Translations under genes and position numbers: made by a program
Source of the DNA: Microcaldota archaeon
Lineage (GTDB): Archaea > Micrarchaeota > Micrarchaeia > Burarchaeales > JAKAKT01
Length of the DNA stretch: 47,019 bases
Assembly (NCBI GenBank): GCA_021813385.1
Contig: JAKAKT010000085.1
Span: forward strand, 1 to 47,019
Direction of reading: 5' to 3'
The notes under the pieces: model-generated
What the model was told of the DNA's origin: nothing
The model's input: the letters and a program-made list of their open reading frames with translations, nothing else
Database searches by the model: none
Shown here: positions 972-39,824 of the stretch, piece by piece
How positions within the stretch are numbered: the first letter of the stretch is position 1
Layout: each line of letters begins with the position of its first letter

Positions 972-996
972 GAAAAAACCTCCGGTTGCCGCTATA

Positions 997-3366: not shown

Positions 3367-3409
3367 ATCATCACTCCATTATGTTGGCCGGTTGCGTTCC
3401 CGCATAGGC

Positions 3410-4552: not shown

Positions 4553-4572
4553 CTTTGTTGCGTCGATGGTGT

Positions 4573-5280
4573 TTAACGCGGCGGAACGGACACGCCGTTC
4601 TTTGATATCTCAAACGGGAGGGGGCCGAGTTTGTGCGGGCTGCCCCTGTTTTTGACTATCTCGAGGCTCCTGCCCGTCTTTGTCTGCTTGCTGAAGTCCA
4701 GGCTTATCACTGTGTCGAAGATGAATTCTGCAATCTCGAACCTGCTCAGCTTTCCTGGCGGCGCCTCGGATGTCGCAAGCATTGTGCATCCCCTCCCAAC
4801 TATCTCGTCTATAAGCCGCTTTATGTAAAGCATTCTCTCGTAGTCGACCTTGAACAAGAGCTCGTATGTTGTCAGTGAATCGACCACAACGCGCTTAGCT
4901 CCAATTGAGCGGATGATTTCTATAAGGAGAATGCTTTCCTGGGATGCGAATTGCTGTATCTCGAGAGCGCCGACCTTCTGAATCCGAAGAAGGTCCTTCT
5001 TCTGAAGCCCTTCTATATCCCAGCCGAATTGGAGCATCATCGGTATGAGCTTGCCTTGCTCTTCATCGAAAGATATGTACGCCCCCGGCTCGCCCATTTT
5101 CGCTCCCTCGCATAGAAATTGGAATGCAAACGTGGTTTTGCCTGCTCCGGGCGGACCGCATAGCAGCGTGGAGTGGCCCTTAACGAAACCGCCCCCCATC
5201 GGCTCATCCAACCCGGGAATTCCCGAGGGTATCTTCTGAAGCCCTTTTGGCTTTTCCTCTTCGAAATCTTTTACAGGCAT
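4573..5280 (-). CDS. KaiC-like RecA-fold ATPase
   Basis: A 235-residue single-domain KaiC/RadA-like ATPase. The typical opening SGIPGLDEPMGGG precedes Walker A GPPGAGKTT (42-50), and a Walker B strand RVVVDSLT lies near residue 130. Such proteins are regulatory ATPases. One group, ArlH/FlaH, partners the motor ATPase ArlI of the archaellum. Here the gene begins 10 bp after the end of a Tad/VirB11-type secretion ATPase on the same strand, so the two are very likely co-transcribed. That mirrors the ArlH-ArlI pairing, although no other archaellum gene is next to it. A role in controlling pilus assembly is inference; the family assignment is firm. Confidence 0.88.
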   Translation of the reverse strand: MPVKDFEEEKPKGLQKIPSGIPGLDEPMGGGFVKGHSTLLCGPPGAGKTTFAFQFLCEGAKMGEPGAYISFDEEQGKLIPMMLQFGWDIEGLQKKDLLRIQKVGALEIQQFASQESILLIEIIRSIGAKRVVVDSLTTYELLFKVDYERMLYIKRLIDEIVGRGCTMLATSEAPPGKLSRFEIAEFIFDTVISLDFSKQTKTGRSLEIVKNRGSPHKLGPLPFEISKNGVSVPPR

Positions 5281-5290
5281 TTGAACCCCC

Positions 5291-7090
5291 TTATTCCATG
5301 ACTTGATTCACTGTTGCGCCCTTCCTTATAAGGCTCAGCACGCGCTCCTGGTCCAGGTAATAGTTCGCCACTACCGCTCCAAGCTTGTTTATGTCGTTGA
5401 GCGAGTTCTTCGCCATCCACTTCAGAATCATCGTCTTCTCGTCCATGTCCGTGTCGATTTCTTTTTCTGTGAAGCCTGCGGTCTCCTGAAGCTCGTTGAA
5501 CACGCGAATACTGTTGTTCACCTGCTCGAATTCGTCCGTCCTTGATTCCCACCTATAGACCACGTTGAGCTCAATGCCAAGAGATGTTAGTGAGGGGGCG
5601 AGTTCCACGACTTGTGTTGTGCGCCTCCTGTTCTTGCGCCTGTCCCTGAACTGGGTGATGAACAGGTGCATCCCCCTCATTTCGACAGAGGGTATCTCGA
5701 GCGGGGGCTCCGTGAAACGCCTGAGCGCACTTCCGGCGTTGTCCGCGTGGAAGGTCCCGTAGCACGAGTGGCCCGTGTGGATGGCCTCGAACATTACCTC
5801 CGCCTGCTGCTTCGTCCTGACCTCGCCGATGACCATGCGGTCAGGCCTCATACGCAGGGAGTTCACCATCAGGTTGAGCATCGTGATTTCGCCCTTTCCC
5901 TCCGGGTTCGGGAGCTTGCTCACAAGCGGGACCCAGTGGGCGAACTGCGGGAGGTTCAGCTCTTTTGTGTCCTCTATTGAAACAATGCGCTGATTGGGTG
6001 GAACGAAGCAGAGGAGCGCGTTGAGCATGCTCGTCTTCCCTGCGGCAGTCCCTCCGATGACCATGAGGTTCATCTCGTGCTGCATCGCAAGCCAGATGAA
6101 CGACGCCATCTCATAGCTCATATTCCCGATGTTTATCATGTCGACGACGGTCCAGGGAACCCTGGCGAACCGGCGGATTGTGAGGGTATTTCCTTTCGGG
6201 CTTACTGCCTGGAGGGTCGCATTCACACGGTCTCCTGTGAGAAGGTGAGCATCGAGAAGAGGGGCGAGGTTCGATATCTGCCTGCCGACCCTCCTGGCGA
6301 TTGACTCGCACATCTCCCTTATGCGCTTCTCTTCGAGGATTATGAGGTTCGTTTTGAGCCAGCCGAACTTCCGGTGGTAGACGTGGACCGGGTCGTCGGC
6401 GTTGTTTATCGCTATGTCCTCTATCCAATTGTCCGCCATCAGGATGTCGATATCGCCAAGCCCGAGCATGTTTATTATCAGCATATCCGCGAGGAAGACC
6501 CGGTCATCGAACGTGATTCCGGGGAATGCCTGGGAAATCATCGTTTTCGCGCCTTCCGTGAATTTCTCCTCGACAGCCGAGTACATTTTCGGGTCGATGA
6601 GCTCCTCGGTTTTCATCTCGGGCATCCTGGATAGCTCTATCTTGATCGAATCAAGAATTGCCGCGGTTGCAGGGGCGATTTCAGGCCTGTGAAGCACGTA
6701 CATTGGGGAGAATTCGTGGCGGACTCGGACGATTTCAACGAATGCGGGAATGTTTTTCAGTGTGAGGTCGTAGGAATCGAGAACCTCCGAGATGATTCTT
6801 CTCTTGCCCGGGGTTTTCGGCTCAAGAGGCAGGTGCTGGAGGGCGAGCTTCGGGGCGTCAAGCGGGTTTGCCGGGCGTTCGAGAGCGGCGATGCCGTGGG
6901 ACACGAGGACCCCCGCCCATCGTTCAACGTGCTCCTGCGTTACCTTTGGTGAGTGTTTCTCCTGTATTTCCCTAAGGGAAATGCTGCCGGTGCCCTTGAC
7001 GGAAACTCCCTCGAGAACGTTGTCGACCACCGTTTTGATAATCCTAGTGACGTTGTTCGGTGGTTCCTTCTTCATTGTCAGGCCGGACAT
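5291..7090 (-). CDS. Type IV pilus/secretion motor ATPase (TadA/VirB11-like)
   Basis: A 599-residue hexameric motor ATPase of the archaeal type II/IV secretion superfamily. A long N-terminal region (about 1-250) precedes the catalytic core. The core shows Walker A GGTAAGKTS near residue 350, the Asp-box-like IEDTKEL, Walker B MVIGEVRT, and the His box HTGHSCYGTFHAD. It powers pilin extraction and assembly with a TadC/ArlJ-type platform protein; two such platform genes lie far away at 39.8-42.0 kb. A TATA-like box (about 7108-7118) about 26 nt upstream of ATG 7090 indicates a leaderless transcript. The downstream KaiC-like gene probably shares the mRNA. Confidence 0.93.
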   Translation of the reverse strand: MSGLTMKKEPPNNVTRIIKTVVDNVLEGVSVKGTGSISLREIQEKHSPKVTQEHVERWAGVLVSHGIAALERPANPLDAPKLALQHLPLEPKTPGKRRIISEVLDSYDLTLKNIPAFVEIVRVRHEFSPMYVLHRPEIAPATAAILDSIKIELSRMPEMKTEELIDPKMYSAVEEKFTEGAKTMISQAFPGITFDDRVFLADMLIINMLGLGDIDILMADNWIEDIAINNADDPVHVYHRKFGWLKTNLIILEEKRIREMCESIARRVGRQISNLAPLLDAHLLTGDRVNATLQAVSPKGNTLTIRRFARVPWTVVDMINIGNMSYEMASFIWLAMQHEMNLMVIGGTAAGKTSMLNALLCFVPPNQRIVSIEDTKELNLPQFAHWVPLVSKLPNPEGKGEITMLNLMVNSLRMRPDRMVIGEVRTKQQAEVMFEAIHTGHSCYGTFHADNAGSALRRFTEPPLEIPSVEMRGMHLFITQFRDRRKNRRRTTQVVELAPSLTSLGIELNVVYRWESRTDEFEQVNNSIRVFNELQETAGFTEKEIDTDMDEKTMILKWMAKNSLNDINKLGAVVANYYLDQERVLSLIRKGATVNQVME

Positions 7091-7120
7091 ATCATCCCAC
7101 GAATAGGATGGGCAATGTTT

Positions 7121-7783
7121 TTATTTAAGCTTGCTGCCTGCTGGCTTGCATTCTCCCATAACCGGACATGACTGGCAGTCAGGCCCTTTTTTCCAACAAT
7201 TCCTTTTCGCAAGCTCAACCAAAAGGGCGTGAAACTCGTTGAGGATGCTCGGGTCTCGAGGAAGCCGGGATTCGTAGAAAAGGCGGAGCTCTTCGTAATC
7301 ACCATCAAAGCCATAGATTCTTTGCGTTATCCTGTGCGTGTATGCATCAATCGGGAGAATCGGGAAATCGAATGCATAGAGGAGAACCGAATCCGCGGTC
7401 TCTTTTCCAACTCCATCCAATTCCAATAACTCGGTTCGGAGTTCAGGCAGTTTGAGCTTCTTCGCCGATTCCCTGATTCTTGGGAATTCCTGTGCGAGAA
7501 GGCGGATGCGCCTTGCTTTTTGCTTGTAGAAACCTGCGGGCCGGATGCAGGATTCGATTGCCGGTTGTTTGGCTATTGCGAGTTTTTTTGCTGTTAGCAA
7601 CTTCTTTCTCCTTAGCTCGCGAATGGCCTTCTCGACGTTTTTCCAACTTGTTTGCTGTGTGAGAATTGCGCCAACTGCGACCTCGAACCCTGTTCGGGCG
7701 GGCCACCAGTCCTGCGGGCCGAAAACCGTAAGGAGTGAGGAATAAAGCTCGGTTGGTTTGATGCGCACATCGCCCGGCTTCAT
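7121..7783 (-). CDS. Endonuclease III-like DNA glycosylase (MagIII-like)
   Basis: A roughly 220-residue HhH-GPD base-excision glycosylase with a C-terminal iron-sulfur motif C-x6-C-x2-C-x5-C. The hairpin and active site read DGVGKETADSVLLY followed by PIDAYTHRI. The catalytic aspartate (PID) is present, but the lysine used by bifunctional endonuclease III for strand cleavage is replaced by glutamate (GKETA instead of GRKTA). That pattern matches the MagIII/HP0602 type of monofunctional 3-methyladenine glycosylase, so alkylated purine removal is the best guess. ATG 7783 is chosen because it lies 26 nt from the shared TATA centre; an upstream in-frame start at 7807 exists. It is divergent from the membrane protein gene at 7835. 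Confidence 0.85.
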   Translation of the reverse strand: MKPGDVRIKPTELYSSLLTVFGPQDWWPARTGFEVAVGAILTQQTSWKNVEKAIRELRRKKLLTAKKLAIAKQPAIESCIRPAGFYKQKARRIRLLAQEFPRIRESAKKLKLPELRTELLELDGVGKETADSVLLYAFDFPILPIDAYTHRITQRIYGFDGDYEELRLFYESRLPRDPSILNEFHALLVELAKRNCWKKGPDCQSCPVMGECKPAGSKLK

Positions 7784-7805
7784 GCAGGGATTTAAATATC
7801 CTAAC

Positions 7806-7813
7806 ATATATAT
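7806..7813. promoter_or_regulatory. Symmetric TATA box for two divergent leaderless genes
   Basis: ATATATAT at 7806-7813 is centred at 7809.5. The minus-strand ATG at 7783 and the plus-strand ATG at 7835 each lie about 26 nt from that centre, the expected TATA-to-start distance for leaderless archaeal transcripts. The same box probably serves both genes. Confidence 0.6.
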
Positions 7814-7834
7814 CTGGTCGGTGTTGGAATGGTT

Positions 7835-8179
7835 ATGGACAACTTAACCCAGACCGAAAATGTCCTTCAGGTCCTGAAAATAATGCTTGCCAGCCTAGCT
7901 GTGATTTTCCTTTTCGCGTTCTTTATTCAATGGAAAATTTCCAAATATCGGCTCCCAGTGATTGCATTTTACATGAAGAAACGGTTCGTAAGGCATAACA
8001 TTGTGCTCGGAACCGGGATAGTCGCGCTGTCGCTCGCATATGTTATCGAGTTCTTGTGGCTGAATGTCAAGCCATTTGACCCCGGCGGAAAGCTCCTTGT
8101 CGACGTTCTCGAGGCGGTATCGCTTGTTTGCATCGGCTTTTCGTATTACAAACTGATGAGGCTGCAGATTCCGGCCTGA
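7835..8179 (+). CDS. Small three-helix membrane protein
   Basis: A roughly 114-residue protein of unknown function. Three hydrophobic segments are visible: ILASLAVIFLFAFF near residue 20, VLGTGIVALSLAYVIEFLW near 57, and VLEAVSLVCIGFSYY near 90, with a basic stretch between the first two. ATG 7835 is preferred over ATG 7829 because it fits the leaderless spacing from the TATA box at 7806. It ends 10 bp before the start of the next plus-strand gene, which carries its own ribosome site, so the two likely form a short operon. I do not recognise the family. Confidence 0.7.
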   Translation: MDNLTQTENVLQVLKIMLASLAVIFLFAFFIQWKISKYRLPVIAFYMKKRFVRHNIVLGTGIVALSLAYVIEFLWLNVKPFDPGGKLLVDVLEAVSLVCIGFSYYKLMRLQIPA

Positions 8180-8189
8180 GGGTGTGTTT

Positions 8190-8603
8190 ATGGGAATAAT
8201 GGACCTGTTCGGGAAGAAGGATGTTTCTGATGACCTCACGAAGAAGATACCATATGTGATGAGGTATAGGTTCAACCCTTACCGCCTTGTCGCGAATAGG
8301 AATAACAGCGTTAGGCTGATGCTTACGGTCAAGAACGCGACGGGAGAGCCCCTAATGACTTCTGTTGTGCTCAAGGTCTCAAAGGGTTTGGGCTTTGACG
8401 AGAGCTGCCTCGGCCAAGTAAGGGAAATTCGGTTTGGGAATGTAGGTCCAAAAGAGGAGAAGGAATTGGATGTTGAGATATTCGGAAAGCTCCAAACCCA
8501 ACCAGGAGAATACAAGGTGCTTGTAACTGCGTTCTCACATTATCGGGATTATGCACATATTTTGAATTCAGAGAGCAAAAAGATTGGCCTGAGGGTTGTT
8601 TGA
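8190..8603 (+). CDS. Hypothetical beta-sandwich protein
   Basis: A 137-residue soluble protein with alternating beta-strand pattern (NSVRLMLTVKNATGEPL, EKELDVEIFG, GEYKVLVTAF), reminiscent of a CARDB/NEAT-like immunoglobulin fold domain. There is no signal peptide or membrane segment; the short N-terminus GIMDLFGKK resembles an amphipathic membrane-tethering helix. ATG 8190 is chosen because GAGGGTG lies just upstream. It follows the three-helix membrane protein and may act with it at the membrane. Function is unknown. Confidence 0.7.
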   Translation: MGIMDLFGKKDVSDDLTKKIPYVMRYRFNPYRLVANRNNSVRLMLTVKNATGEPLMTSVVLKVSKGLGFDESCLGQVREIRFGNVGPKEEKELDVEIFGKLQTQPGEYKVLVTAFSHYRDYAHILNSESKKIGLRVV

Positions 8604-8666
8604 AGCGTTGCGGTGTGAAGAGGAAGCGGCGTTGCTTTGGTTACTGGCCTGCGGGTCGACAGCCGC

Positions 8667-9407
8667 TCAGGCTTTCCCCGCCCTCTGGAACAAGTAGACT
8701 CCGATTATATAGCATATTGAATTTATTAGTGGGAGCAATGACGAGACGAGCTGCTGCTCTGGGAGCAGCGCATCCTGAAAGTAGAGGAGCCGGTACCAGC
8801 TCGTAAAGACCATCATAGAAAAGCCAGCAGAAAACCAGGCGAGCATCATCTCATCTGTCCGTATATACGCGTAGAGGGCCATTAGAGTGATGAATATGTA
8901 GAGGAGCATCCAGAACGCCGTGAGCACGTAAATGGCATATGTTATAAGCGTCTGATCTCCACTCTGACCGTTCAGCACCCCGTAACCGAGAAGCGCAAGG
9001 ATGACAATTGCAAGTATAAGGAGGAACTGTTTGGAGAGCGCGGGGCTCGCTTTGAGCCATCTCGTGCAAAGAAATGCCCACAACCCGCTCAGGAAAAACG
9101 CACCTGAGATTACCTGAAGCGCAGCGATTAATACTTCTGCCGGGCTGTTTGTTGCGGGGTTGAGGGATAGGTTTAGCCATTTTATTATGAGTTCACACAC
9201 CATCCCGAAGCCGAGCCAGAGCAGAACGGGGGGCTTTGATATTGTTGAAAAATACCATTTCCAGGACATTCCTGCTGCGATGACGCCGGCTAGCACGGCG
9301 ATGAGCCTGATTGTGGATATGTCGGGTGATTGCGGTTGGCCCTGGGCGGACGTAAATGTTGACAGCAGGACAATTGCCGCCGCGAACAGCATCATTCTGT
9401 TTTTCAT
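8667..9407 (-). CDS. Multi-pass membrane protein
   Basis: A roughly 246-residue integral membrane protein with about seven hydrophobic helices. The N-terminus MKNRMMLFAAAIVLLS followed by SAQGQ looks like a cleavable signal or first helix. Later helices include LIAVLAGVIAAGMSW, LLILAIVILALLGYGVL and YIFITLMALYAY. ATG 9407 is preferred to the upstream 9431 because a TATA box (TATTTAAATA, about 9436-9445) sits at the right distance for a leaderless start. Seven-helix proteins of this layout are common and unassigned in archaea. It is convergent with the preceding small-protein gene. Confidence 0.75.
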   Translation of the reverse strand: MKNRMMLFAAAIVLLSTFTSAQGQPQSPDISTIRLIAVLAGVIAAGMSWKWYFSTISKPPVLLWLGFGMVCELIIKWLNLSLNPATNSPAEVLIAALQVISGAFFLSGLWAFLCTRWLKASPALSKQFLLILAIVILALLGYGVLNGQSGDQTLITYAIYVLTAFWMLLYIFITLMALYAYIRTDEMMLAWFSAGFSMMVFTSWYRLLYFQDALLPEQQLVSSLLPLINSICYIIGVYLFQRAGKA

Positions 9408-9499
9408 CAAGACACCAATATGGGAATGCATTCTATATTTAAATACTATTCAAGTTGGTCAGCTGCATGCTATTTGTTTATACTATGGCTCTTTTGGCC

Positions 9500-10474
9500 T
9501 CAGAGTTCGCGTTCAATTAAGAAGTCCGCGAGACGCAGGAGTTTCTCCGTTGACGAATTTGTTTTCAGGATTTTGAGGTCTTTTTTTGCGTTCTTCACCA
9601 TCGACTTGGCTTTCTCTTTCGCATAATTGATGGACCCGGCTTTTTGCAATATTGTCACGCCCCGCATTATATTTGCCTTGTCGGTTGTATTTGAATTTAG
9701 AATCGAGATCAACTCCTCTCTTTCTGTTGGGGTTGTATGGGATAGCGCGTGGATTGTCATTAACGTCCTCTTACCTTCTGTTATATCGCCCCCTATTTCC
9801 TTCTTATAGAGTGTTTCCTCGCCAATGAGATTGAGTATGTCGTCTTGTATTTGGAATGCGATACCAACCGCCATTCCGTAGGATTTCAAAGTTGTTATTT
9901 GTTTTTGACGCCCTCCCCCTATCATCGCGCCGGTCTCGCAAGCTGCGCTTATCAGGGCCCCCGTCTTCATCCCAACCATCTGGAAATACCCGGCCTCTAG
10001 CACATCTTGTTTTTTTTCTGAATTCCATTTGAGTTCCATACCTTGCCCGTTTAGGACTTGAAGGAAACTTTTGTAAAGGACTTCTCGAACATCTGGGGTT
10101 ATGCCCTCCATCGCTTTGAGGGTGTAAAGGAGCATTCCGTCTCCTGAGTTTATCGTCGTTGGTATCCCGTAGATTTTATGGATGCACGGCTTCCCGCGGC
10201 GCATCTCAGAACCATCTTCGATGTCATCGTGAATCAGTGTGAAGTTATGGAAGAGCTCTATTATCGCTGCGGTGTGCAGGGCGGTTCTTGGATCACCACC
10301 AACTGCCTCGCAGGATAGCATGCACATTATTGGCCTGAAACGCTTGCCCCCCCTGTTAAGTAACTCCCAAATCGGATCGGTGACGTTTTTTGAGTCTTTG
10401 GCGGATGGGATGACTTTTTTCATATACGCGTCAATTTTAGGCGCTTCTAAGGCTAGTTCATCAAGAATCTCCAT
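9500..10474 (-). CDS. Polyprenyl (geranylgeranyl/farnesyl) diphosphate synthase
   Basis: A 324-residue trans-prenyltransferase that condenses IPP with allylic diphosphates to make the C15-C20 or longer chains of archaeal lipids. The first Asp-rich motif is DDIED, preceded by HNFTLIH and followed by RRGKPC. The second region reads QIQDDILN, where the last acidic residue of a classical DDxxD is asparagine. Met and Cys residues (MCMLSC) lie before the first motif, in the region that sets chain length. It would use the IPP made by the mevalonate cluster at 17.4-23.6 kb. ATG 10474 lies close to a TATA-like TTAAAT (about 10496-10501), so the transcript is probably nearly leaderless. The product chain length is not readable. 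Confidence 0.92.
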   Translation of the reverse strand: MEILDELALEAPKIDAYMKKVIPSAKDSKNVTDPIWELLNRGGKRFRPIMCMLSCEAVGGDPRTALHTAAIIELFHNFTLIHDDIEDGSEMRRGKPCIHKIYGIPTTINSGDGMLLYTLKAMEGITPDVREVLYKSFLQVLNGQGMELKWNSEKKQDVLEAGYFQMVGMKTGALISAACETGAMIGGGRQKQITTLKSYGMAVGIAFQIQDDILNLIGEETLYKKEIGGDITEGKRTLMTIHALSHTTPTEREELISILNSNTTDKANIMRGVTILQKAGSINYAKEKAKSMVKNAKKDLKILKTNSSTEKLLRLADFLIEREL

Positions 10475-26267: not shown

Positions 26268-27890
26268 TTATTCCTGTTTCTGCGCTTTCTCAAGCAGGTT
26301 GTATATGTCCAAATCAAGTCCATTGTGCTCCTCGAGTTCCCGGTCGACCCAATCAAGCAGAATCTTTTTCGCCTCGAGGAACTTGTCCCTTCCAACATCG
26401 ACATTCCCAATCGCATACCTCTTGTTCTTGGTGTTGAAGCAGAACATCGAATCGTGCACATTCTCACAGTTGTGGCAGAAGTAGCATCCTGTGCAGTTGT
26501 TGCAGGCGTCAAGCTCGAATGAGCGCGATACCTTTGTCGAGAAATGGCAGTTCACGCAGAAAGAGTTGTGCCTGCCTTCCCTTCCCCCGAACATGAATTC
26601 ACAGCTTCTCGGAGAGAAGCAAAAGGCGCAGAGCTTGGAAAGCATATATAACGTCCCCCGGTAGCAGTCAATCGAATCAATATTCAACGGGGAGTCGATG
26701 TTGTTTTTCAGCTTGCCCGAGAGCCAGTATGGCGAGAAGAAGGCGATTTTGCTCAGGATTTCCGAGGCGTTCGCAAGAGAAACGGATTCGGCTTCTCCCT
26801 GCGAAAGCGCCATCCTCTCCCCAAGGAAATCGGCTTCCCGCTGGGTAATCAGGCGCTCCAGCGGATATTCGCGAAACCAGGCGTAATCGGGTATCGTCAA
26901 TGGCTTGCCAGAAGCGCAAGACTTCCTGTCATCGAGGCGAATCGCTGAGTTTTTAGAAAGCCACCCGGAATACCCATCTATCGGAGAGAGAGGCTTCCCA
27001 AGGACCACGTTCGTAGTCTCTGAAAATGCATTTTCTATCTTGCTCTTGTCGGTTTTCTCCTCAGGGAAATGCCCTGCCGCCTTCATCGTCTCGTTGAGAA
27101 ACGAATAATCCGGTTTCTGCTTTGCAACGATTTCGGAAACAGAGGGAAGTCGTTTGTCCCTAACAAGCACCCCCCTGGACTCGGCAATAAGCTTCTCCTT
27201 TATTGCAGCATACTTGTCAGGCGGCAGCTCAAGATTGCCGATTCGATAGCGTTTGCCTTTTAGGTTGAAACAAAAACAACAATTAGTGCAGTCCGTAAGG
27301 CCGTGCGAGAAATAGCAGTCAGACGAAAAACTGATTTTCGTGGAACAGAGGCACCGGGTGATGTCCCAGGCTCCCCCGCACTTTATTGCAAAATTTACCG
27401 GGCCAAACCCATAGCAGCCGAACACATTTTCGCTGTACCCGCCCCTTGACGAATAGGCCACGTATTTTGAAAATGCCACTCTCTCCGAGTGGAGCACATA
27501 GAAGCAGTCGGTTATGGTGCTGCTCTGTTCTACGAATTTGGAGTTTCCGAGTACGATGTTGCCGGTATACGCAATCCTATCCGAAATCGCCACTAGGAGC
27601 GAGTCGATGTCCTTTATTTCGTTTATTGAGAGCGGAGGGTATCTCTTCTCCAAGTCCACCTCATCAAAAGAAATCCAGCGGGCATTCTCGGAATAGTTGG
27701 GATTTGCATAAACGACTTCCTTTCCAGAAACCCCGGATTTTTGGACCATGCGGGGGCCGTTGCCTTCGTAAAGCCATTTTGCGTAGTCCGACAGTTCGCC
27801 GACTTCGCCGCCTAAAAGGGCGGCGCAAGCCGATTTCCAGCGCTTATTCACTGAATCGTAAACTTGAGGTTCCAGCATGCGGCCACCCAT
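26268..27890 (-). CDS. Cys-rich repeat protein of unknown function
   Basis: A roughly 540-residue protein with many Cys pairs in a repeating pattern: CFCFNLKGKRYRIGNLEL in the first half and CFNTKNKRYAIGNVDV near the C-terminus, each followed by a helix (PPDKYAAIKEKL and GRDKFLEAKKIL). Between them are short beta-like repeats with Cys at regular spacing (NCCFC, NNCTGCYFCHNC). Similar Cys-rich repeat proteins are widespread in DPANN archaea and CPR bacteria and have no assigned role; a beta-helix with bound metals is my guess. Start is uncertain: ATG 27890, ATG 27878, or ATG 27935, which would overlap the aTrm56 start. No signal peptide. Confidence 0.8.
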   Translation of the reverse strand: MGGRMLEPQVYDSVNKRWKSACAALLGGEVGELSDYAKWLYEGNGPRMVQKSGVSGKEVVYANPNYSENARWISFDEVDLEKRYPPLSINEIKDIDSLLVAISDRIAYTGNIVLGNSKFVEQSSTITDCFYVLHSERVAFSKYVAYSSRGGYSENVFGCYGFGPVNFAIKCGGAWDITRCLCSTKISFSSDCYFSHGLTDCTNCCFCFNLKGKRYRIGNLELPPDKYAAIKEKLIAESRGVLVRDKRLPSVSEIVAKQKPDYSFLNETMKAAGHFPEEKTDKSKIENAFSETTNVVLGKPLSPIDGYSGWLSKNSAIRLDDRKSCASGKPLTIPDYAWFREYPLERLITQREADFLGERMALSQGEAESVSLANASEILSKIAFFSPYWLSGKLKNNIDSPLNIDSIDCYRGTLYMLSKLCAFCFSPRSCEFMFGGREGRHNSFCVNCHFSTKVSRSFELDACNNCTGCYFCHNCENVHDSMFCFNTKNKRYAIGNVDVGRDKFLEAKKILLDWVDRELEEHNGLDLDIYNLLEKAQKQE

Positions 27891-27933
27891 TCCTAGAATG
27901 AAATTATTAATCTTGAGGGGGTTAATTAACTTC

Positions 27934-28443
27934 ATGATTGCAGTTCTCCGCTGGGGCCATCGTGCAGTCCGGGATGAGCGGATAACCTCGCACGTCTGCC
28001 TGGTCGCCCGGGCATTCGGCGCGGACAAGGTGATTGTCAGCGGCGAGAATGCATCTGAAAGCGTCGAATCCACGAAAAAAATTATTGAGAATTGGGGCGG
28101 CAAGTTCGAAGTGGAATACACGAAGAACTGGCGGAAAGTCCTCGATGAGTGGGAGGGAAAAATCATCCACCTCACGATGTATGGCGAGCAACTGCAGGAC
28201 AAAATTGCACAGCTGCGCACAAAAAAGGACCTTCTGGTCGTTGTAGGCTCGCAGAAAGTTCCCCCGGAGCTTTACCACCGAGCAGCTTACAATATCTCGG
28301 TCACGACCCAGCCGCACTCGGAGGTCGCGGCGCTCGCAGTTTTCCTCCATGAATATTTCGAGGGAAAAGAGCTTGGAAAAGAATTCCCGAATGCAAAAGT
28401 GAAAATAAAGCCAAACCCTCGAGGAAAATCCTTCGAGCGATAG
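27934..28443 (+). CDS. trm56: tRNA (cytidine(56)-2'-O)-methyltransferase aTrm56
   Basis: A 169-residue SPOUT-class methyltransferase that adds a 2'-O-methyl group to C56 in the T loop of archaeal tRNAs. The start MIAVLRWGHRAVRDERITSH is highly typical. The SAM-binding knot region is in LLVVVGSQKVPPELY and VTTQPHSEVAALAVFLHEY. C56 is in the T loop, exactly where both tRNAs of this window carry introns, so modification presumably requires splicing first. ATG 27934 is preceded by a TATA-like GTTAATTAAC. It is divergent from the Cys-rich protein gene. Confidence 0.93.
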   Translation: MIAVLRWGHRAVRDERITSHVCLVARAFGADKVIVSGENASESVESTKKIIENWGGKFEVEYTKNWRKVLDEWEGKIIHLTMYGEQLQDKIAQLRTKKDLLVVVGSQKVPPELYHRAAYNISVTTQPHSEVAALAVFLHEYFEGKELGKEFPNAKVKIKPNPRGKSFER

Positions 28444-30717: not shown

Positions 30718-30805
30718 GGTAGGTGGAAACCCCCTCGAAGAAGTCTTTATATTCCTTTTTTGTGATAATATCTAACTTATTCTGAAAGCGAAAAAGGTGG
30801 TAATT

Positions 30806-32206
30806 ATGGCAAGCGAAGATAATCCTCCCCAGGCAGATGCTGCTGATGGCTCCACGGACCCAAGAGCAGAACCCGAGCCGGCTCCGAGCAAAACTGACCC
30901 AAAGCAAGCGGATCCGACCCCGAGGATTGTGGCCGGTTCGATAAACATAAAAGCTCTCGAGCAAGCCCTAACAATACCAGATGCGAAAGAAAGGCTCGAC
31001 AAGATTCTCGAAATCGCGCTTGCCGCAACACCAAACGACTCTACTTCGCCGACACTGCCGCGCGAGCAAATAATGGGAGTCATCAAGGGCCCGGCGAGGG
31101 AAATGGACAAAATCTGGGGGCAGTTAGCCGACCAGAGAGCTGGCATCAAAGACAAAGTTACTGAGTTCGCAACGCAGCACCACCAGTCGCTCAGCCGATA
31201 TACTGAGCTGGCTGTTCACGTATTCGGAAACGGGGTCCCCCCGAAAGAAGGGGCATCCGCTGAGCAACTAAAACTGAGCTTAAGCGTACCAGAGCCAAAA
31301 GCGCCCCCAATATCTATAGAAGAGCAGGCGAAGCGGAAATTCGCTGGCCAGATATTAACCTGGCATCTGGGCGATGTAATGTTTGCAAACGGGCTTAGCC
31401 TAAGTCCCCTCACTCAAAACGAAAAAATACCGCTCATACAGGCTGCAGTCGATGTCTCGATGCACGCTCTCCATCCCAAATTGCCCGAGAGGATACTATT
31501 CCAATCCCCGATGAATCTAGGGTTTAGGTTGAACAGCATTCTCAAGCTCGTCAGGAACAACCCCGGGATTTTCGAGAATTCTGAAGCTGGGAATGGGCTA
31601 ATCCATCAACTGGAGAAGGTGAGGAGGAGGGACCTCTATTTGGCATCACTTGGGGACAATAATGTGCTTGATGTAGCAGATACCACAACTCTCAATATAT
31701 TGGCAGAGATTGGAGGACCCAACGCAGTCCGCCTGAGCGCCGAGATAGTGGGCCGGAACCCAAGCGAAGAAATCAAAACAGTCGCAATAGACACACTTGG
31801 GAAAATCGGGCACGCCGACCCGAGAACTGCCGTATTGGCAATAAAGCAGGCTGGAAAAGGCATAACAAAACTCGAGGGCAATGTTAGCCAAGCTCTCGAT
31901 AGGATAGCGGAATCCTGCGCGGCTGGATGCAATGTCACTTTTACTGACTTTTCAGCGCTCTGGGAAGTAATCAACCCAATCCTCAGGGCCGACGGAATTG
32001 GTTCCATCACAAGAAATACTACAATTCACGACGCAGCTTCGAAAACATTGCCAAAAGGAACAGACGATTTGGCCCGAATAGCAATAGGTATGATGAAACC
32101 GCGCCACCCCATACAAACAAGGGCAGGGGCGAAGGTTCTCGCGACATTGCAGCGCACGGGGATGAGAAGCATCGGGAACACCACGATGGTCATCAAGCAA
32201 ATCTGA
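30806..32206 (+). CDS. Helical-repeat paralogue 1
   Basis: A 466-residue soluble protein of unknown family, first of four related genes. The N-terminus (1-50) is acidic and Pro-rich. Helical repeats follow, with ILKLVRNNPGIF, TLGKIGHADPRTAVLAI, FSALWEVINPILRADGIG and IAIGMMKPRHPIQTRAG. The GxIGHxxxxxA...A and MKPRHPIxxR pieces recur in the next three genes. HEAT-like alpha solenoid is my reading, which usually means a protein-binding scaffold. ATG 30806 is preceded by AGGTGG (30795-30800) and a TATA box at about 30744-30755. No signal peptide or membrane segment is seen. Confidence 0.75.
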   Translation: MASEDNPPQADAADGSTDPRAEPEPAPSKTDPKQADPTPRIVAGSINIKALEQALTIPDAKERLDKILEIALAATPNDSTSPTLPREQIMGVIKGPAREMDKIWGQLADQRAGIKDKVTEFATQHHQSLSRYTELAVHVFGNGVPPKEGASAEQLKLSLSVPEPKAPPISIEEQAKRKFAGQILTWHLGDVMFANGLSLSPLTQNEKIPLIQAAVDVSMHALHPKLPERILFQSPMNLGFRLNSILKLVRNNPGIFENSEAGNGLIHQLEKVRRRDLYLASLGDNNVLDVADTTTLNILAEIGGPNAVRLSAEIVGRNPSEEIKTVAIDTLGKIGHADPRTAVLAIKQAGKGITKLEGNVSQALDRIAESCAAGCNVTFTDFSALWEVINPILRADGIGSITRNTTIHDAASKTLPKGTDDLARIAIGMMKPRHPIQTRAGAKVLATLQRTGMRSIGNTTMVIKQI

Positions 32207-32239
32207 ATATCGGGTGCGTGTTAGAATGGAGGCGATTTG

Positions 32240-33328
32240 ATGGCAGAAGTACATGGCGGCGGAAGCGCGGGCGTAGTGGGTGCGATGCGACTAGCAGCGG
32301 CTGAAACCCAACAGCCACAACAGCGAAGACCCTACTTAATCGCATTGGAGGCAGCTGTCAGTTCAAATTCAGTCGAAAGGATACTGGATGCCATAGATAA
32401 GGCGGTTCCAGAAGAAACACTTGGGTCAAAGTCCCTGAATGACAGGAGGAGTTCCGTTTTTGACTTTCTAATCTCCGAATTCTCCCGCGTCATAGAAAAA
32501 AAGGACAACGAAGTTGTTTCGAGAGCAATCGTGAAGCTTGTTAGCGACGAAAGAGCTGCGCAAGACTTTGTCATTTCCGCTTTTTGTGCGCTGCTCCACA
32601 AATACAATCCAACAACTGCGCCCAAGAGGCTCGAAACTGCAACCGGAGCGTTAAAGGCAATACGGGAAACCAAACGGGGCAACGAGCCATTTCACACGTC
32701 CTTGCGAGCCGCCGTTTACTCTTACCACGTAGAATCCATTGTGAAAGACTTAATAGGCCCAAACGATGCGCGCTACCCGAAACTGGCAGAATTCGTCACA
32801 GAACTCGGAGGCTCGCAGGGAGTTTGGATACTGGCATCATTCATCGAGAAAAACTGCGCGGTGCTCGAGTCGGTCACAGGCCTCGGCAGGATAGGCCATT
32901 ACGACATAGAGACAGCAGCCATCGCCCTGCACACGGCGAGCACAAAGCTCCCCCGCGATGCGGACACCCCCTCAAGGGAAGGTCACGATGTTTTCGAGGC
33001 ACTGAGAGCTGCATTCGAGAATTTGACCACAACGATTTCGCCAGGTCGCTCATTTGAAAGCAACCGGGCACTGTGGAAGGCTTTGGAACCGCACCTCTCT
33101 TATGCGGGGATGGGCTGGTTTGCGAGGCAGAGGATAAAAAGCCTGATAACCGGAGGCAATGACAAGAGCACGGACAGTTTCGTTCGGGATGCGATTGCCT
33201 TGATGAAGCCGAACAGCAGGCGCAATGCCACTTTGGTGACAGCCCTTGCCCAAGTTCCGAGATTAAAAATTACTCCAAGGCCGGCAGTAATCGCACAAGG
33301 AACCAGGCCGGCAGCCCAAAGAGCTTAA
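32240..33328 (+). CDS. Helical-repeat paralogue 2
   Basis: A 362-residue paralogue of the preceding protein. Shared pieces are VTGLGRIGHYDIETAAIAL, NRALWKALEPHLSYAGMGW and AIALMKPNSRRNATL, in the same order as in paralogue 1. The N-terminus differs, with a short Gly-rich and Gln-rich lead, so paralogues diverge mainly at that end. ATG 32240 follows GGAGG with good spacing (an in-frame TTG lies just before). It is cytoplasmic by absence of signals. Gap to the previous gene is 33 bp, fitting one operon. Function is unknown. Confidence 0.75.
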   Translation: MAEVHGGGSAGVVGAMRLAAAETQQPQQRRPYLIALEAAVSSNSVERILDAIDKAVPEETLGSKSLNDRRSSVFDFLISEFSRVIEKKDNEVVSRAIVKLVSDERAAQDFVISAFCALLHKYNPTTAPKRLETATGALKAIRETKRGNEPFHTSLRAAVYSYHVESIVKDLIGPNDARYPKLAEFVTELGGSQGVWILASFIEKNCAVLESVTGLGRIGHYDIETAAIALHTASTKLPRDADTPSREGHDVFEALRAAFENLTTTISPGRSFESNRALWKALEPHLSYAGMGWFARQRIKSLITGGNDKSTDSFVRDAIALMKPNSRRNATLVTALAQVPRLKITPRPAVIAQGTRPAAQRA

Positions 33329-33338
33329 GGTGATTTCA

Positions 33339-34433
33339 TTGGGAGATTGTGAAGGTGGCGGCAGCGGAGACACAGGAACAACTGAACACGATTCTGACAT
33401 GTTTCTGCAGATGAATTCAAGACGGTATTTCATTAATTCCCTGCCCCCAGCCCAACGGCATGCTGCAACAGTTGAAATCTTTCTCAACTATGTCCCAGGG
33501 GGCCAGCAAGCCAAGGACAAGCCTTTAGGGGAAAAAGAGGCAATCGTTTTCCGCGGCCTTCTCGGGTTCATTAATGATGCAGCTAGCCAAAACATCGTTC
33601 AAATGCTTTTAGACTCGCTCGTGGAAGTCGCAGGCACAAACTTCATATCCCGAGTCGAAGCTGACTACTATGGGTCCATCAACCTTTTCCTCTCCCTGCT
33701 CCCTCTCCCTGGTGACGAGCACGGGTTCGCCAGAATCGATGCGGCGATGCAGATTTTCGAAAACAATCCCAAGCTTTTCAACCGGGCGTCGTTCGCATCC
33801 CTACTCGAACACAGGCTAGCTTCTTTCGATTCAATGCAAGGCACTGACGATTTTTGGGCAAAGGCAGCCAAGTTTCTCAGTCAATCGGATTCCCGGGATG
33901 CCGTCGAGACCCTGGCAAAGCTCATCCGCAATGACCGGGCAGTCCCGCAGGCAGTCGAAGCTCTTGGCGAAATCGGCCACAATCACCCGGAGGTCGCGGC
34001 ATTTGCGCTCAACACCGTTCTCGCGAGCATGTCCCGCTCGGCATCCAACCCGGACCATGACGACCACTCCCTTTACCTAAAGGCAAACGCGGCCCTGGAC
34101 AAGATAGCTGACCGCATGGTCGAGAATTGTGATTTCTATGTGACCGACAACAGCTCGACTACATTCTCGAGCGTCCTTGGCAGTGCTTTGAAGCAGTTGG
34201 GAGTCCAAGGCCGGCCAGTTGCATGGCTAGCTGACACGATATCGGACCAAAACATCATCTCGCTCAAGGAGCTAGTGCGGGTCGAAATCAGGAAGCCGAG
34301 GCCCTGGCACCCACTCGAAAGCAGGGAAGCGAGGTCTTTCCTTGATGCGATGAAGAGAATGCAAGTTCCAACTCACCCAAACGTGAAACAGGCGTGCAGA
34401 TACGATGGCGCTAGGGCATTAGCGAGCAAGTGA
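33339..34433 (+). CDS. Helical-repeat paralogue 3
   Basis: A roughly 364-residue paralogue. It carries MQIFENNPKLFN (compare paralogue 1 RNNPGIF), VEALGEIGHNHPEVAAFAL and RKPRPWHPLESREAR, again in the family order. TTG 33339 is preferred because AAGGTGA lies just upstream with the same spacing as in the neighbouring genes; GTG 33330 is the alternative. The middle part has several helices with alternating Leu pattern. No catalytic motif is visible. Confidence 0.7.
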   Translation: MGDCEGGGSGDTGTTEHDSDMFLQMNSRRYFINSLPPAQRHAATVEIFLNYVPGGQQAKDKPLGEKEAIVFRGLLGFINDAASQNIVQMLLDSLVEVAGTNFISRVEADYYGSINLFLSLLPLPGDEHGFARIDAAMQIFENNPKLFNRASFASLLEHRLASFDSMQGTDDFWAKAAKFLSQSDSRDAVETLAKLIRNDRAVPQAVEALGEIGHNHPEVAAFALNTVLASMSRSASNPDHDDHSLYLKANAALDKIADRMVENCDFYVTDNSSTTFSSVLGSALKQLGVQGRPVAWLADTISDQNIISLKELVRVEIRKPRPWHPLESREARSFLDAMKRMQVPTHPNVKQACRYDGARALASK

Positions 34434-34473
34434 AGTTTCAAGGCGAATCTCAAAAAAAAAGACGGTGAAACAA

Positions 34474-35436
34474 ATGACGCAGGCAACAGAACGAATACCA
34501 CGCGGTGAAGTAAAATTCATGACCGGGGGGCTCAAGGCAGCCCTTCAGGTCGAAGAGAGCCAAAGGAAAAACGCGGTTCTCGAAGTTGTTTATGCCTCCT
34601 CGCCCGGAGCCAGGTTCCCTACCCCTCCAAGGAATTGGAAAAGGGACGTGATAGACGTCCTGCTGATTCAAATTATCCCAACCTCCGTGGACCGAAAGGA
34701 AAGAAGGCGAGCTGCAAGGGTACTCATAAAAATCGTGGGCAAGACAGATGACCAGGAAATCGTGAGGTTCTTGCTTGACCCGGGACCGGACAGGTGGGCT
34801 AACATCCAAACAGGCGAGGCAAGAGTCGAAGCGGCTTTAGGCATACTGAGAAACAACCCCGGCATTCTAAAAAAACCACTTGCAATAACGGCGATTCTCG
34901 AAGCAGCTGAAAAAACCTGCTGGGACCAGGAGTTCCAATCTTCCATCGGTGACATCGCAGACATCGCTGCCATGGCAAAAAGCGCCAGCCAGCGGGACCA
35001 CATGATTAGGCACATCAAGTCAGGCAATGCAGTTGCCCGGTCAGCAATCGCGCTATCCGAGTTCAACTACCCGGACATTGAAACTGCAATGCCCGCAATA
35101 GCCGCCCTCAACGAGCTGAGGGCTCAAGAGAAAGGCAATCCTGCGGGAAATGCCTGGCATTCAGTTGACAAAATAGTCACCTCCACAACCCAACGAGTCG
35201 CTTATTCGTCGAGCTTGGAACTCTTCGAGGCCATGGACTCAGTCCTGAGGGAACCGGACTCCGGCCTGGGTCAATGGGGCCGCAAACGGGTCAGGAGTTT
35301 GGTTATAGACAAAGGCATAACCGATACGCTGGTTTTGGCGCGAACGGCAGCGAAGTTTATCGGGCCAAAGCATCCGATTCGCGGCCCAAGGGCCGAAGCA
35401 GTCCTTCGTGCGACTCAAGCGATTGCTTTGCGATAA
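34474..35436 (+). CDS. Helical-repeat paralogue 4
   Basis: A roughly 320-residue paralogue and the last of the row. Shared pieces are LGILRNNPGILKK, EFNYPDIETAMPAIAAL, LFEAMDSVLREPDSGLGQW and FIGPKHPIRGPRAEAVL. ATG 34474 has GGTGA upstream; GTG 34465 is possible. The following CDC48 gene has its own TATA box, so the operon of four probably ends here. The IGH segment of the other three is less conserved (LSEFNYPDIE). Function is unknown. Confidence 0.75.
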   Translation: MTQATERIPRGEVKFMTGGLKAALQVEESQRKNAVLEVVYASSPGARFPTPPRNWKRDVIDVLLIQIIPTSVDRKERRRAARVLIKIVGKTDDQEIVRFLLDPGPDRWANIQTGEARVEAALGILRNNPGILKKPLAITAILEAAEKTCWDQEFQSSIGDIADIAAMAKSASQRDHMIRHIKSGNAVARSAIALSEFNYPDIETAMPAIAALNELRAQEKGNPAGNAWHSVDKIVTSTTQRVAYSSSLELFEAMDSVLREPDSGLGQWGRKRVRSLVIDKGITDTLVLARTAAKFIGPKHPIRGPRAEAVLRATQAIALR

Positions 35437-35465: not shown

Positions 35466-35477
35466 TATTTTTTATAC
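35466..35477 (+). promoter_or_regulatory. TATA box for CDC48-like gene
   Basis: TTTTTTATACTC at about 35466-35477 lies about 28 nt upstream of ATG 35501 and predicts a leaderless message separate from the upstream four-gene row. Confidence 0.55.
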
Positions 35478-35500
35478 TCTTCCTTAGAATACTCTAGCGA

Positions 35501-37624
35501 ATGCCTATCGAGCTGCGGGTGAAGGAGGCGATGCAGGCTGACGTAGGGTTCGCCATCGCCCGCGTCGACGCAGTTTCGATGCACAGGCTCGGGGCATACG
35601 ATGGGGACACTGTAATCATCGAGAAGGAAAAAAAGGCAATCGCCCGGGTCTGGCGCTCGCAGGGTGACGAGAAAGGGATAATCCGGCTGGACGGGATTCT
35701 GAGGTATAACGCCTCTGTCGGCCTTGATGATGTCGTCCGGGTCTCGAAAACAGACTGCTCCCCAGCAAAAGAGCTCCACCTCGCCCCGATGGAGGACCTC
35801 TCCTTCAAGCAGGACTTCAGGGAGTACCTCAAGGAACGCATTCTGAACATCCCGCTCCTTCCAAACAACAGCGTTGTTGTCGAGGTGATGGGCCGGGCCC
35901 TCCCGTTCATGCTCACCAGCTCTTCTCCGAAAGGGCCGGTCTATGCGACAAAAGAGACAATCGTCCAGCTCGCAACCAAGCCTCCGAAAAGCGTTTCGGA
36001 AGTCGGGATTCGGTACGAGGACATAGGGGGGCTCAAAGAAGAGGTTGACACCATCCGGGAAATGATTGAGGTCCCGCTGAAATATCCGGAAGTATTTAAG
36101 CGGCTTGGGATTTCCCCACCGAAAGGAATCCTGTTGCTTGGCCCGCCCGGATGTGGAAAGACCCTCCTCGCCAAGGCAGTTGCGAACGAAACCGAGGCTT
36201 CTTTCTTCACAATCAATGGTCCAGAAATAGTCGGAAGCCTTTACGGCCAGTCCGAGGAAAACATCCGAAAAATATTCAAGGAAGCCAAGGGAAGCTCCCC
36301 ATCCATCATATTCATCGATGAAATAGATGCAATCGCCCCGAAGCGCGAGGACACGAGCGGCGAAGTAGAGCGGAGAATGGTGTCACAACTGCTAATTGAA
36401 CTGGACGGGCTCGAGGCGAGAGGCGATGTGATTGTTCTCGCTGCTACAAACAGGCCAAATGGGCTCGACCCTGCCCTAAGGAGGCCGGGCAGGTTTGACC
36501 GCGAGATAGAAATCCGCACCCCGGACAACCAGGGGAGGAAGGAGATTTTCCAGATTCACACGCGGGGAATGCCGCTTTCCGGGGTCGAGCTGAATGACCT
36601 TGTCGGCGTAACCTATGGGTTCACAGGTGCCGACATCCGCGCGCTCTGCAGGGAAGCGGCGATGAGGGCCTTGAAGCGGATTCTTCCGGACATAAGGAAA
36701 GAAAAGGAAGGGACGCTTTCGAAGGAGCTTCTCGAGAAGCTATCCGTGACAAAAAATGATTTCCTCTCTGCCTTGAAAGCAGTCGAGCCGTCTGCGATAC
36801 GTGAAGTGGTCACGGAGGTCCCGAAGACTTCGTGGGAAGATGTCGGCGGCCTTGCGCAGGCCAAGCAGGAGCTAATAGAGGCAGTCGAGTGGCCGCTGTC
36901 GAATCCCGACATGTATGAAAAAATCGGGGTTTCCCCGCCGAAAGGAATTCTGCTTCTCGGTCCTCCTGGGTGCGGCAAGACTCTTCTCGCAAGAGCTGTC
37001 GCGAACGAATCAAAAGCCAACTTCATCTCGATAAAGGGCCCGGAGATAATCTCGAAATATGTTGGCGAGAGCGAGAAGTCGATTCGGGAGATTTTCAAGC
37101 GCGCAAGGCAAGCGTCACCAGCGATAATCTTTTTTGATGAAATCGATTCCATCGCCTCGATAAGGGGCTCGGGCTCGGACAGCCGGGCGACGGAACGCGT
37201 TGTCAACCAGCTCCTAGTCGAGATGGATGGATTGGAGGAGCTATACCAGTGCGTTGTGCTCGCAGCCACGAACAGGCCCGACCTCATAGATTCAAGCCTC
37301 CTGCGCCACGGCAGGTTCGATAAGATTCTGTTCGTCCCTGTGCCGGACAAGGAGACGAGGAAGGCGATATTCTCGATTCATACGGAAAAGATGCCCCTTG
37401 GGAAAGACGTCAGCCTCGAGAAGCTCATCGAGTCAACTGACGGCTACACGAGCGCAGACATTGCAGCGATATGCCGCGAAGCAGGGATGTTCAGCATAAG
37501 AGAAAGCAAAAAGAACAGGCAGGTCTTCAATAGGCATTTCGACCTTGCTTTCAAGAAGATACGCCCATCCCTCTCAAAGCAGGAGCTCGCTTCCTGGGAA
37601 ACAGTGAGGAAAAAATACGAGTAA
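35501..37624 (+). CDS. CDC48/VAT AAA+ ATPase
   Basis: A 707-residue double-ring AAA+ unfoldase. An N domain (about 1-180, starting [21 protein letters not shown]) precedes two ATPase modules. D1 has Walker A GPPGCGKT near 215 and Walker [16 protein letters not shown] near 270; D2 has GPPGCGKT near 488 and [15 protein letters not shown] near 544; second-region-of-homology stretches [19 protein letters not shown] and [19 protein letters not shown] are intact. It extracts and unfolds proteins, often for the proteasome. The C-terminus ends in KYE, with a penultimate Tyr reminiscent of the HbYX proteasome-docking tail though the preceding residue is Lys. Follows the four helical-repeat genes. Confidence 0.96.
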
Positions 37625-37686
37625 GCAATCTCCGCATCGAGGCCATAATGCGAATATAAAAATAACCTTCCTTTCAAGAAGACTAT

Positions 37687-38130
37687 ATGGCCCGCCCAAT
37701 GAGCCGCGCGCAGATTTTCATTTTCGATGTCATAATAGCCACCACGGCTTTCCTTCTCCTGACATTTGCCATTGTCTCGCTCTCGAGGCAGGGCGCCCCG
37801 CCAGCAAGGCAAGAGGCATACATTGTCTGCCTCTCCGGCCTCGAAGCATTAAAGGAAAACAACACTCTTTCAGATGTTGCCAATGGCACAATGCCCGAGT
37901 CGCTCCTAAATACATCTCTTGGCAATCTCCCAACACGCTTCGGCTATGAACTGAACCTGACCACCTATTCGGTGTCAGGGGCCAAAGTCAAGGCATACTA
38001 CGGGCTAAGCGGCAATCTCACGGACGCGGAATTGAGGGGCGACCTCGTTTCAGTGTGGTCTTCTTTCGTCACTGACAATGCCACGCCATTAATGGGAAAG
38101 GCACGATTGAGGTGCTGGGTGGGGAAATGA
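37687..38130 (+). CDS. Pseudopilin-like secreted protein
   Basis: A 147-residue protein with a single N-terminal helix after a short basic start (RPMSRAQIFIFDVIIATTAFLLL), a layout seen in archaeal pilins and pseudopilins cleaved by a prepilin peptidase. The rest is Asn/Thr/Ser-rich with several N-x-S/T sites, consistent with an extracellular domain. Cysteine content is low. ATG 37687 is leaderless behind a TATA box (AATATAAAAATA near 37652-37662). It overlaps the next gene by 4 bp (ATGA). Confidence 0.78.
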   Translation: MARPMSRAQIFIFDVIIATTAFLLLTFAIVSLSRQGAPPARQEAYIVCLSGLEALKENNTLSDVANGTMPESLLNTSLGNLPTRFGYELNLTTYSVSGAKVKAYYGLSGNLTDAELRGDLVSVWSSFVTDNATPLMGKARLRCWVGK

Positions 38131-39824
38131 GCAAAGGACAAACATCAACCCAGATTCTTGCCTCAGCAACCATAGCGACGCTAATGCTCACCTTGGTGAT
38201 CTCTTATGCATCCACACTAAGGAACCTCTCAACTTTCGAGCCAAACCCAGTTCCTATGGCGCTCCGCCACATAAAATCCGACTTCGATTCCGATTACGGG
38301 ACCCTCTTCTGTGATGCCGGCATATGCATAAATTCAACGCATTCAAGTGATGCGTTTATAACATTCAAGCTAAACTACCACTCGGAATTCTTTTCAAATT
38401 TAACTAACTTCACCGGGAGCTATGCGAATCTGTTTAATTCGACTCGCTCGACCCTCCTCCCAGCAGGGTTGGACGCCCACCTGGCCTCAGGCTATTTGCT
38501 GCTCAGCGAGATGGCGACAGGCTCGAACTATTCGCTCTTCAACTTCACGACAGGAAACGTCAGCCTCAATTTCAATTCAAGCACAGTGACAGCATACTCC
38601 CTTCACTATAATTGCACAAATACCTCGAGTGTGTTATGGGCCCCCGACTTATACCCCCATCAGGGCATCGAGATAAGTTTTACCCTGCCAAACTATAACC
38701 AACCTCCAACAAACACTTCCAACGTGAGCCTATCTCCAGATGAAGACGGCAGCATCCGCTTTGATGGAACCTCGTATGTGGTCGAGACAGGAATCCCGAC
38801 TTCTTCAATGGGCCTTGACAACAAAGACCCGGTGGAATATGAGAATCGCACCTACCTGAGCTTCAACACATCAGTGATTCCGGATGACTCGACTATCCTC
38901 ATAGCCCACCTGTGGTTATACGTCGATTCCTATGATGTATCGCCAGGGACACATCCCGCCTGGATCGTGGATTACAAGATGGGCCCTAGCATCATAGGGA
39001 CAACATTGACAAGCGACGACTGGGGCGATCCAGGGTTTGTGTCCGCAGGCACCCTTGATTACAACCAAACAACCGGATGGAAGGATTTCATAGTCTCCTC
39101 GTCCCGTCACATAGACATCAATGTCACAGGGCAGACGGATTTCGAGCTTGTAGGTACCTGGGCCGGGTCAGTCCAGAACAACAAAAAGGCCCTCGTGTCT
39201 ATTCGCGAGACGGAATACGCAGGAACTTCGTTTGACCCTTACATCACCATTCAGTATGCGATTCCCGGGGGCCCGTCCATAAACCGCTCGCTCAACTTCA
39301 GCACAAGCTTCAACACCACTTGCGGTCAGACAAACATCTCGTTCATCATGGGAAATCTCTATTCGAACTTCAGCTACCAAAACGTCACTCTCAATGCGAC
39401 AATCCCAACGAACAGCACGGTCGGGGTATTCCCGCTATTCAACAAAACAACATTTTACGCCCCCCAAAGCGCGTTCTCTTCAATCTGCGCATCCGGGTCC
39501 GAGCCAGCCTATCCCTCCACAGCCACTTCGACGAAATACGGTTCCTTCCACGTTTCGGGCCAGACGATAAACATGGTGCTCGCCCAGCGCTCTGGCTCCT
39601 TCAACACGGCATATTTCGACACGAACGGGAACTGCAACTTCACGGATTCCACAGACGAATATTTCATAACAGCAGGCGAATGGGTCAGGCTCGAGGGCTA
39701 TGCTGCGAAGCTGGATTCAATAGCTTCGGATGGGGCGAATGCAACATTCACGTTCGCCTCCCTCAGCCTCGAGTCAACCCTCCTCAAAGCCCGTCTCGTC
39801 CAGCCCATTTATTTAAATAAGTGA
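38127..39824 (+). CDS. Large surface protein with pilin-like N-terminus and DNRLRE-like domain
   Basis: A 565-residue protein beginning with a basic lead and a hydrophobic helix (STQILASATIATLMLTLVIS). A long Asn/Ser/Thr-rich region with many N-x-S/T sequons follows. Around residues 210-380 a segment with RTYLSFNTSVIPDDSTILIAHLWLYV and WGDPGFVSAGTLD resembles a DNRLRE-type beta-sandwich domain common in surface adhesins. ATG 38127 overlaps the previous stop (ATGA), indicating translation coupling with the small pseudopilin. It probably forms or decorates an extracellular fibre. Confidence 0.8.
   Translation: MSKGQTSTQILASATIATLMLTLVISYASTLRNLSTFEPNPVPMALRHIKSDFDSDYGTLFCDAGICINSTHSSDAFITFKLNYHSEFFSNLTNFTGSYANLFNSTRSTLLPAGLDAHLASGYLLLSEMATGSNYSLFNFTTGNVSLNFNSSTVTAYSLHYNCTNTSSVLWAPDLYPHQGIEISFTLPNYNQPPTNTSNVSLSPDEDGSIRFDGTSYVVETGIPTSSMGLDNKDPVEYENRTYLSFNTSVIPDDSTILIAHLWLYVDSYDVSPGTHPAWIVDYKMGPSIIGTTLTSDDWGDPGFVSAGTLDYNQTTGWKDFIVSSSRHIDINVTGQTDFELVGTWAGSVQNNKKALVSIRETEYAGTSFDPYITIQYAIPGGPSINRSLNFSTSFNTTCGQTNISFIMGNLYSNFSYQNVTLNATIPTNSTVGVFPLFNKTTFYAPQSAFSSICASGSEPAYPSTATSTKYGSFHVSGQTINMVLAQRSGSFNTAYFDTNGNCNFTDSTDEYFITAGEWVRLEGYAAKLDSIASDGANATFTFASLSLESTLLKARLVQPIYLNK

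Follow-up and report, generated by a model that had tools for sequence, protein, structure and literature searches.

The four tandem genes described here (Table 1) probably belong to a genus-level, fast-diverging family of HEAT/ARM-type scaffold proteins that expanded in tandem and became inserted beside DUF1405, LonB, and an accessory CDC48, a reading to which a probability of about 0.6 is assigned. The genes lie in a 47,019-nt stretch of DNA (hereafter the window) from a micrarchaeal MAG (G000) of 1.78 Mb in 105 contigs, 93% complete. Tandem expansion of a solenoid family was unexpected in a genome this small, and a literature search (open library) recovered no paper joining HEAT repeats with DPANN or Micrarchaeota.

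Table 1. Features of the four-gene array, its flanks in the window, and the other family loci of the same genome
Feature	Position	Strand	Details
TATA-like element TTTATATT	30746..30753	+	About 60 nt 5' of member 1; score 8/8
Family member 1 (P0001, 466 aa)	30806..32206	+	ORF; start ATG 30806; GGTGGT ribosome site
Family member 2 (P0002, 362 aa)	32240..33328	+	Start ATG 32240; GGAGG ribosome site
Family member 3 (P0003)	33339..34433	+	Preferred start TTG 33339; GGTGAT ribosome site
Family member 4 (P0004)	34474..35436	+	Preferred start ATG 34474; GGTGA ribosome site
TATA-like element TTTATACT	35471..35478	+	-30 before CDC48a, which has no ribosome site
CDC48a (CDC48-family AAA+ ATPase)	35501..37624	+	TIGR01243, 964.9 bits
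Two genes with pilin-like N-termini	37687..39824	+	N-terminal hydrophobic segments read directly
Family members P0006 and P0007	Contig C62		Side by side
3'-end family fragment	Contig C62, beside P0006		83% DNA identity to the end of P0009
Family member P0009	Contig C42		

The preliminary description of this DNA had reported four adjacent, co-directional genes, each with a ribosome site, directly upstream of an unfoldase, and all of this was borne out: the starts could be refined from the ribosome sites, of which every gene has its own, and a gap of 64 nt separates the array from CDC48a. The codon-use log-odds of the four genes were positive in the read frame and negative or about zero in the other five frames, ruling out random ORFs. 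P0001 consists of a long low-complexity N-terminus followed by a C-terminal HEAT-like solenoid core. Upstream of the array, TTTATATT is a possible candidate promoter, its score being reached by 2.2% of random 45-mers from the window. Known RNA genes were also looked for in the window, including the gap 5' of gene 1, and none was found.

The array genes had further been taken for divergent paralogues, which sequence comparison confirmed. Pairwise identity among the four proteins was 20-25%, yet Smith-Waterman scores exceeded those of 300 shuffles in all six pairs (z 9.6-20.5), ruling out chance similarity, and phmmer linked the paralogues with E values from 3e-13 to 5e-7. Members 2 and 3 were the closest pair (z 20.5) and member 4 was the most divergent of the four. 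The ordered motifs noted earlier are real and occur in order, but not in every gene: NNPx(I/L) is missing in gene 2, the W/F...P/S-x-L motif is missing in gene 3, and gene 4 has a degenerate form of GxIGH. The reported N-terminal divergence likewise needs qualification, since a short Gly-rich start, often acidic, is common to five of the seven family members found in the genome, where it precedes a low-confidence tail.

Profile searches and structure prediction point to a HEAT/ARM-type fold. In Pfam, HEAT_2 (PF13646) matched P0003 (16.5 bits, E 0.011) and P0001 (13.7 bits, E 0.076) below its curated cut-off of 27.7, which none of the four single proteins reached, and P0002 and P0004 had no HEAT_2 match; searches of NCBIfam, PHROGs, and PADLOC with the family proteins gave no match either. 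A profile built from seven members matched designed alphaRep HEAT-like proteins in the PDB (E 8.8e-17 to 3e-4) and the HEAT-domain protein 6veh (E 4.4e-6), with MTH187 reaching only E 0.077, and these alphaRep/HEAT matches cover the centre of the profile. AlphaFold2 models, made from a seven-row alignment and of middling confidence, showed for both P0003 (pLDDT 73, pTM 0.65) and P0004 (pLDDT 71.8, pTM 0.61) an all-helical solenoid, with 17-18 helices and an N-terminal tail of low confidence. In Foldseek, designed armadillo proteins, alphaReps, and karyopherins ranked first for the P0003 model, and axonemal repeat subunits, TSC2, and importin alpha were among the first for the P0004 model; the top matches of both were ARM/HEAT-type with a probability of 1.00 but E values of 0.017-0.022, none being at or below 0.001. 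The earlier proposal of helical, soluble-looking solenoids is thereby upheld by the two models and the family profile, and the family can be assigned with moderate confidence to soluble-looking HEAT/ARM-type alpha-solenoid proteins.

At least seven family members and one fragment were found at three loci of the genome. P0007 reads in two frames and the genome is a draft, so that pseudogenes or assembly errors are possible among them. The tree of the seven members gave no resolved order, with branches near saturation. Apart from short HEAT cross-hits, no family relative was detected in 60-98 close genomes or in 301 genomes of the phylum by sequence searches, which very distant relatives could escape, and the genome_contigs, viral_contigs, and phage searches gave none. 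Weak profile matches in three related genomes (G005, G033, and G065) lie within the HEAT-like centre, and those inspected, in G005 and G033, were ordinary HEAT proteins. Taken together, a new, lineage-specific, genus-level, and tandemly expanding family is reasonably supported; the fold itself is ordinary. A viral origin was rejected (no PHROGs, phage, or viral-contig match), as was identity with a defence protein (no PADLOC match).

Other features of the same genome were recorded alongside these loci. A 711-residue protein without a known family is encoded directly 3' of P0009 (L048:929-3064, minus strand). Two copies of AAAAGCGGACARATGTTNGTTCA, resembling an insertion-sequence end, occur at a contig end by a truncated family member (L044:14242-14362). 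Moreover, a second paralogous family is present in apparently four copies (window 26268-28220, minus strand; L192:4687-6279 and 8648-10246; L193:5929-7479), with N-termini like '...NKRWKSTAKLIFGEEIGELKDYEEWL' and a Cys-rich copy in the window.

The loci outside the window suggest how the family came to its present places. In a sister genus of the same family (G001), the gene order is Orc1/Cdc6, YchF, LonB, and DUF1405, the last two being convergent and touching. In G000, P0007, P0006, and the P0009-like fragment come after the Orc1/Cdc6-YchF-LonB block on C62, where the contig then ends in IS-like repeats, and the single-copy DUF1405, with P0009 directly 3' of it, lies on a different contig from LonB. 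Because DUF1405 and LonB are neighbours in the sister genus and each stands beside family genes in G000, the simplest account, joining two contigs, is that the family probably entered between them after the genera split; loss of the family from G001 is the alternative. Hidden remnants of the family were sought in the DUF1405-CDC48a interval of G005, G007, and G013, and at the loci of G001 and G021, and none that turned up was convincing (best E 0.059). In two genera, LonB itself looks as if it were divided between two genes whose products a split intein would join: the N-half, on one contig, ends in DPLQ and an intein-like N-segment, and the C-half, on another contig, opens with an intein-like C-segment followed by SGGLG (G000, L044:10566-11966 on C62 with L198/L202 on C25; G001, L190:3010-4497 on C72 with L199/L203 on C146).

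The genome has two CDC48 genes, and the ATPase beside the array is the product of one of them. In a maximum-likelihood tree, the other copy, on contig C48, groups with copies of the order and class in a clade including named Micrarchaeota, whereas CDC48a falls into a separate clade with the copies of G005 and G007 (support 100/100). The named Micrarchaeota nest within the class's housekeeping CDC48 clade, and this assigns the genome to them. Copies of the CDC48a type were found in five of the 301 genomes (G000, G005, G013, G007, and G021, the last at 59% identity); five rows, G013a among them, are missing from the tree, so that the placement of G013a rests on an earlier, replaced tree and its 63% identity to CDC48a. 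In archaea, C-tails of the hydrophobic-Tyr/Phe-X type dock on the 20S proteasome. The complete housekeeping CDC48 copies that were read carry such tails, mostly MYR, MYA, MYG, or MFR, whereas the C-termini of the accessory copies read KKYE, RRWQ, VRA, KGL, or QYR, and these copies have YG rather than VG in pore loop 1. CDC48a of G000 ends in KKYE and lacks a Met-Tyr/Phe-X tail; it is therefore probably no proteasome activator and would act as a proteasome-independent unfoldase.

The surroundings of CDC48a also recur in genomes that lack the family. Genes with pilin-like N-termini, which had no Pfam pilin match in the window, follow CDC48a in G000, G005, and G007 (window 35501-39824 and loci L045 and L047), giving it a recurring downstream setting independent of the family. 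On its 5' side, DUF1405 lies just upstream in G005 and G007, and two inverted genes intervene in G013. The idea of one operon with CDC48 became doubtful, given the 64-nt gap, the lack of a ribosome site, and TTTATACT at -30. These features are consistent with a leaderless promoter of CDC48a's own, TTTATACT being weak alone, since about 21% of random 45-mers score as well or better.

Whether the family serves CDC48a, as first suggested, can be judged from this distribution. The four proteins would then be substrate adaptors or cofactors, with their core on the N-domain, variable surfaces choosing clients, and tails aiding the start of unfolding. The array does adjoin CDC48a on the same strand, DUF1405 neighbours CDC48a in G005 and G007 and a family member in G000, and CDC48a, as a second, specialised copy without the Met-Tyr/Phe-X tail, would need another source of clients. 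However, three of the seven members are encoded at two other loci away from any CDC48, four other genomes (G005, G007, G013, and G021) have a CDC48a but lack the family, and CDC48a is probably under its own promoter. In addition, strict SHP, VIM, and HbYX motifs were sought in the seven members without success, and no UBX domain was matched by Pfam in the four array proteins. The gene-neighbourhood survey proposed at the outset, run over the 301 phylum genomes, showed that linkage of the family to CDC48 is not conserved. A dedicated link to CDC48 is thus not supported, and the adaptor role, though possible, appears doubtful.

Tandem helical-repeat genes are not confined to the window's genome, and HEAT_2 matches numbered 81 in G005, 41 in G056, 39 in G050, and 21 in G033. 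Long runs of adjacent HEAT genes occur on contigs of G033 (L064, C11) and G005 (L063, C22), each genome with its own conserved C-terminal tail. On another G005 contig (L062, C27, about 339-9312), a MoxR-type AAA gene and then a vWA/CobT-like gene precede a tandem series of at least four HEAT-repeat genes, an arrangement that may represent a MoxR-vWA-HEAT system in an archaeon. MoxR-vWA systems bearing repeats, including HEAT, have been described mainly in bacteria and proposed as recognition or conflict modules (PMC7159879). Among the array neighbours read in the window (Nudix-like, CDC48a, and pilin/T2SSF-like genes), neither MoxR nor vWA was found, other window genes being inspected by eye. 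The window's family may represent this tendency toward HEAT arrays in an extreme and diverged form, the likeness lying in the predicted fold.

Two further readings draw on these arrays. As tandem paralogues with one core and their own ribosome sites, the four proteins could assemble into their own hetero-oligomeric scaffold or cell structure, with CDC48 as an accidental neighbour, and the similar HEAT arrays without CDC48 in related genomes fit this; nevertheless, the genes of three further members lie far from the array, and we consider such an assembly possible but short of probable. Alternatively, the genes might be a rapidly diversifying module for recognition or conflict, copied for variety and not for one cellular machine. 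The near-saturated divergence of the paralogues, their restriction to one genome among those searched, the fragment, the two-frame copy, and the IS-like repeats that close contig C62, as well as the MoxR, vWA, and tandem HEAT genes of G005, would agree with such a module, but it seems unlikely, as no nuclease, toxin, or defence domain was seen beside the array and PADLOC gave no match.

Under the preferred reading of an expanding scaffold family, tandem duplication would have multiplied a solenoid in one micrarchaeal lineage, with insertion beside the single-copy DUF1405 and LonB and beside the accessory CDC48. Each protein would be a binding scaffold whose solenoid core, made up of the HEAT-like centre and the conserved helices at the C-terminus, packs against its sisters or holds a partner common to all, while contacts to different clients would fall to the divergent helices and the flexible Gly-rich N-terminal tail. 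We infer that the family proteins bind proteins and act together; that CDC48a is their common partner is a plausible suggestion, but one that we think unlikely to be right. Still more speculative is the idea that, in a DPANN archaeon, divergent and lineage-specific HEAT-like adaptors supply clients to an accessory CDC48 that works independently of the proteasome, which, if true, would be an archaeal, independently evolved counterpart of the diversity of eukaryotic CDC48 cofactors. To our knowledge, client choice by archaeal CDC48 is largely open because eukaryotic-type cofactors are mostly missing, and a genome with two CDC48s, the one without a proteasome-docking type of tail beside a newly born scaffold family, offers a testable place to study it.

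Compared with known systems, the family resembles CDC48/p97 cofactors in being encoded beside a CDC48-family ATPase and in a possible client-binding role, and differs from them in lacking UBX, strict SHP, VIM, or HbYX and in its unconserved linkage. With the tandem HEAT arrays of G005 (C22 and C27) and G033 (C11), it shares many adjacent, co-directional helical-repeat genes and tandem expansion; those arrays, however, encode plain HEAT_2/PBS-lyase HEAT proteins (E down to 1e-51) with other conserved C-tails, and the one on C27 is preceded by a MoxR-type AAA gene and a vWA gene, not by CDC48. The nearest likeness in structure is to HEAT/ARM solenoids (PF13646 and the MTH187-derived alphaReps), with which the family shares an all-helical predicted fold and the match at the profile centre, whereas its single proteins fall below Pfam cut-offs and, outside that centre, it diverges strongly and has a conserved C-terminal motif and a Gly-rich N-terminus of its own.
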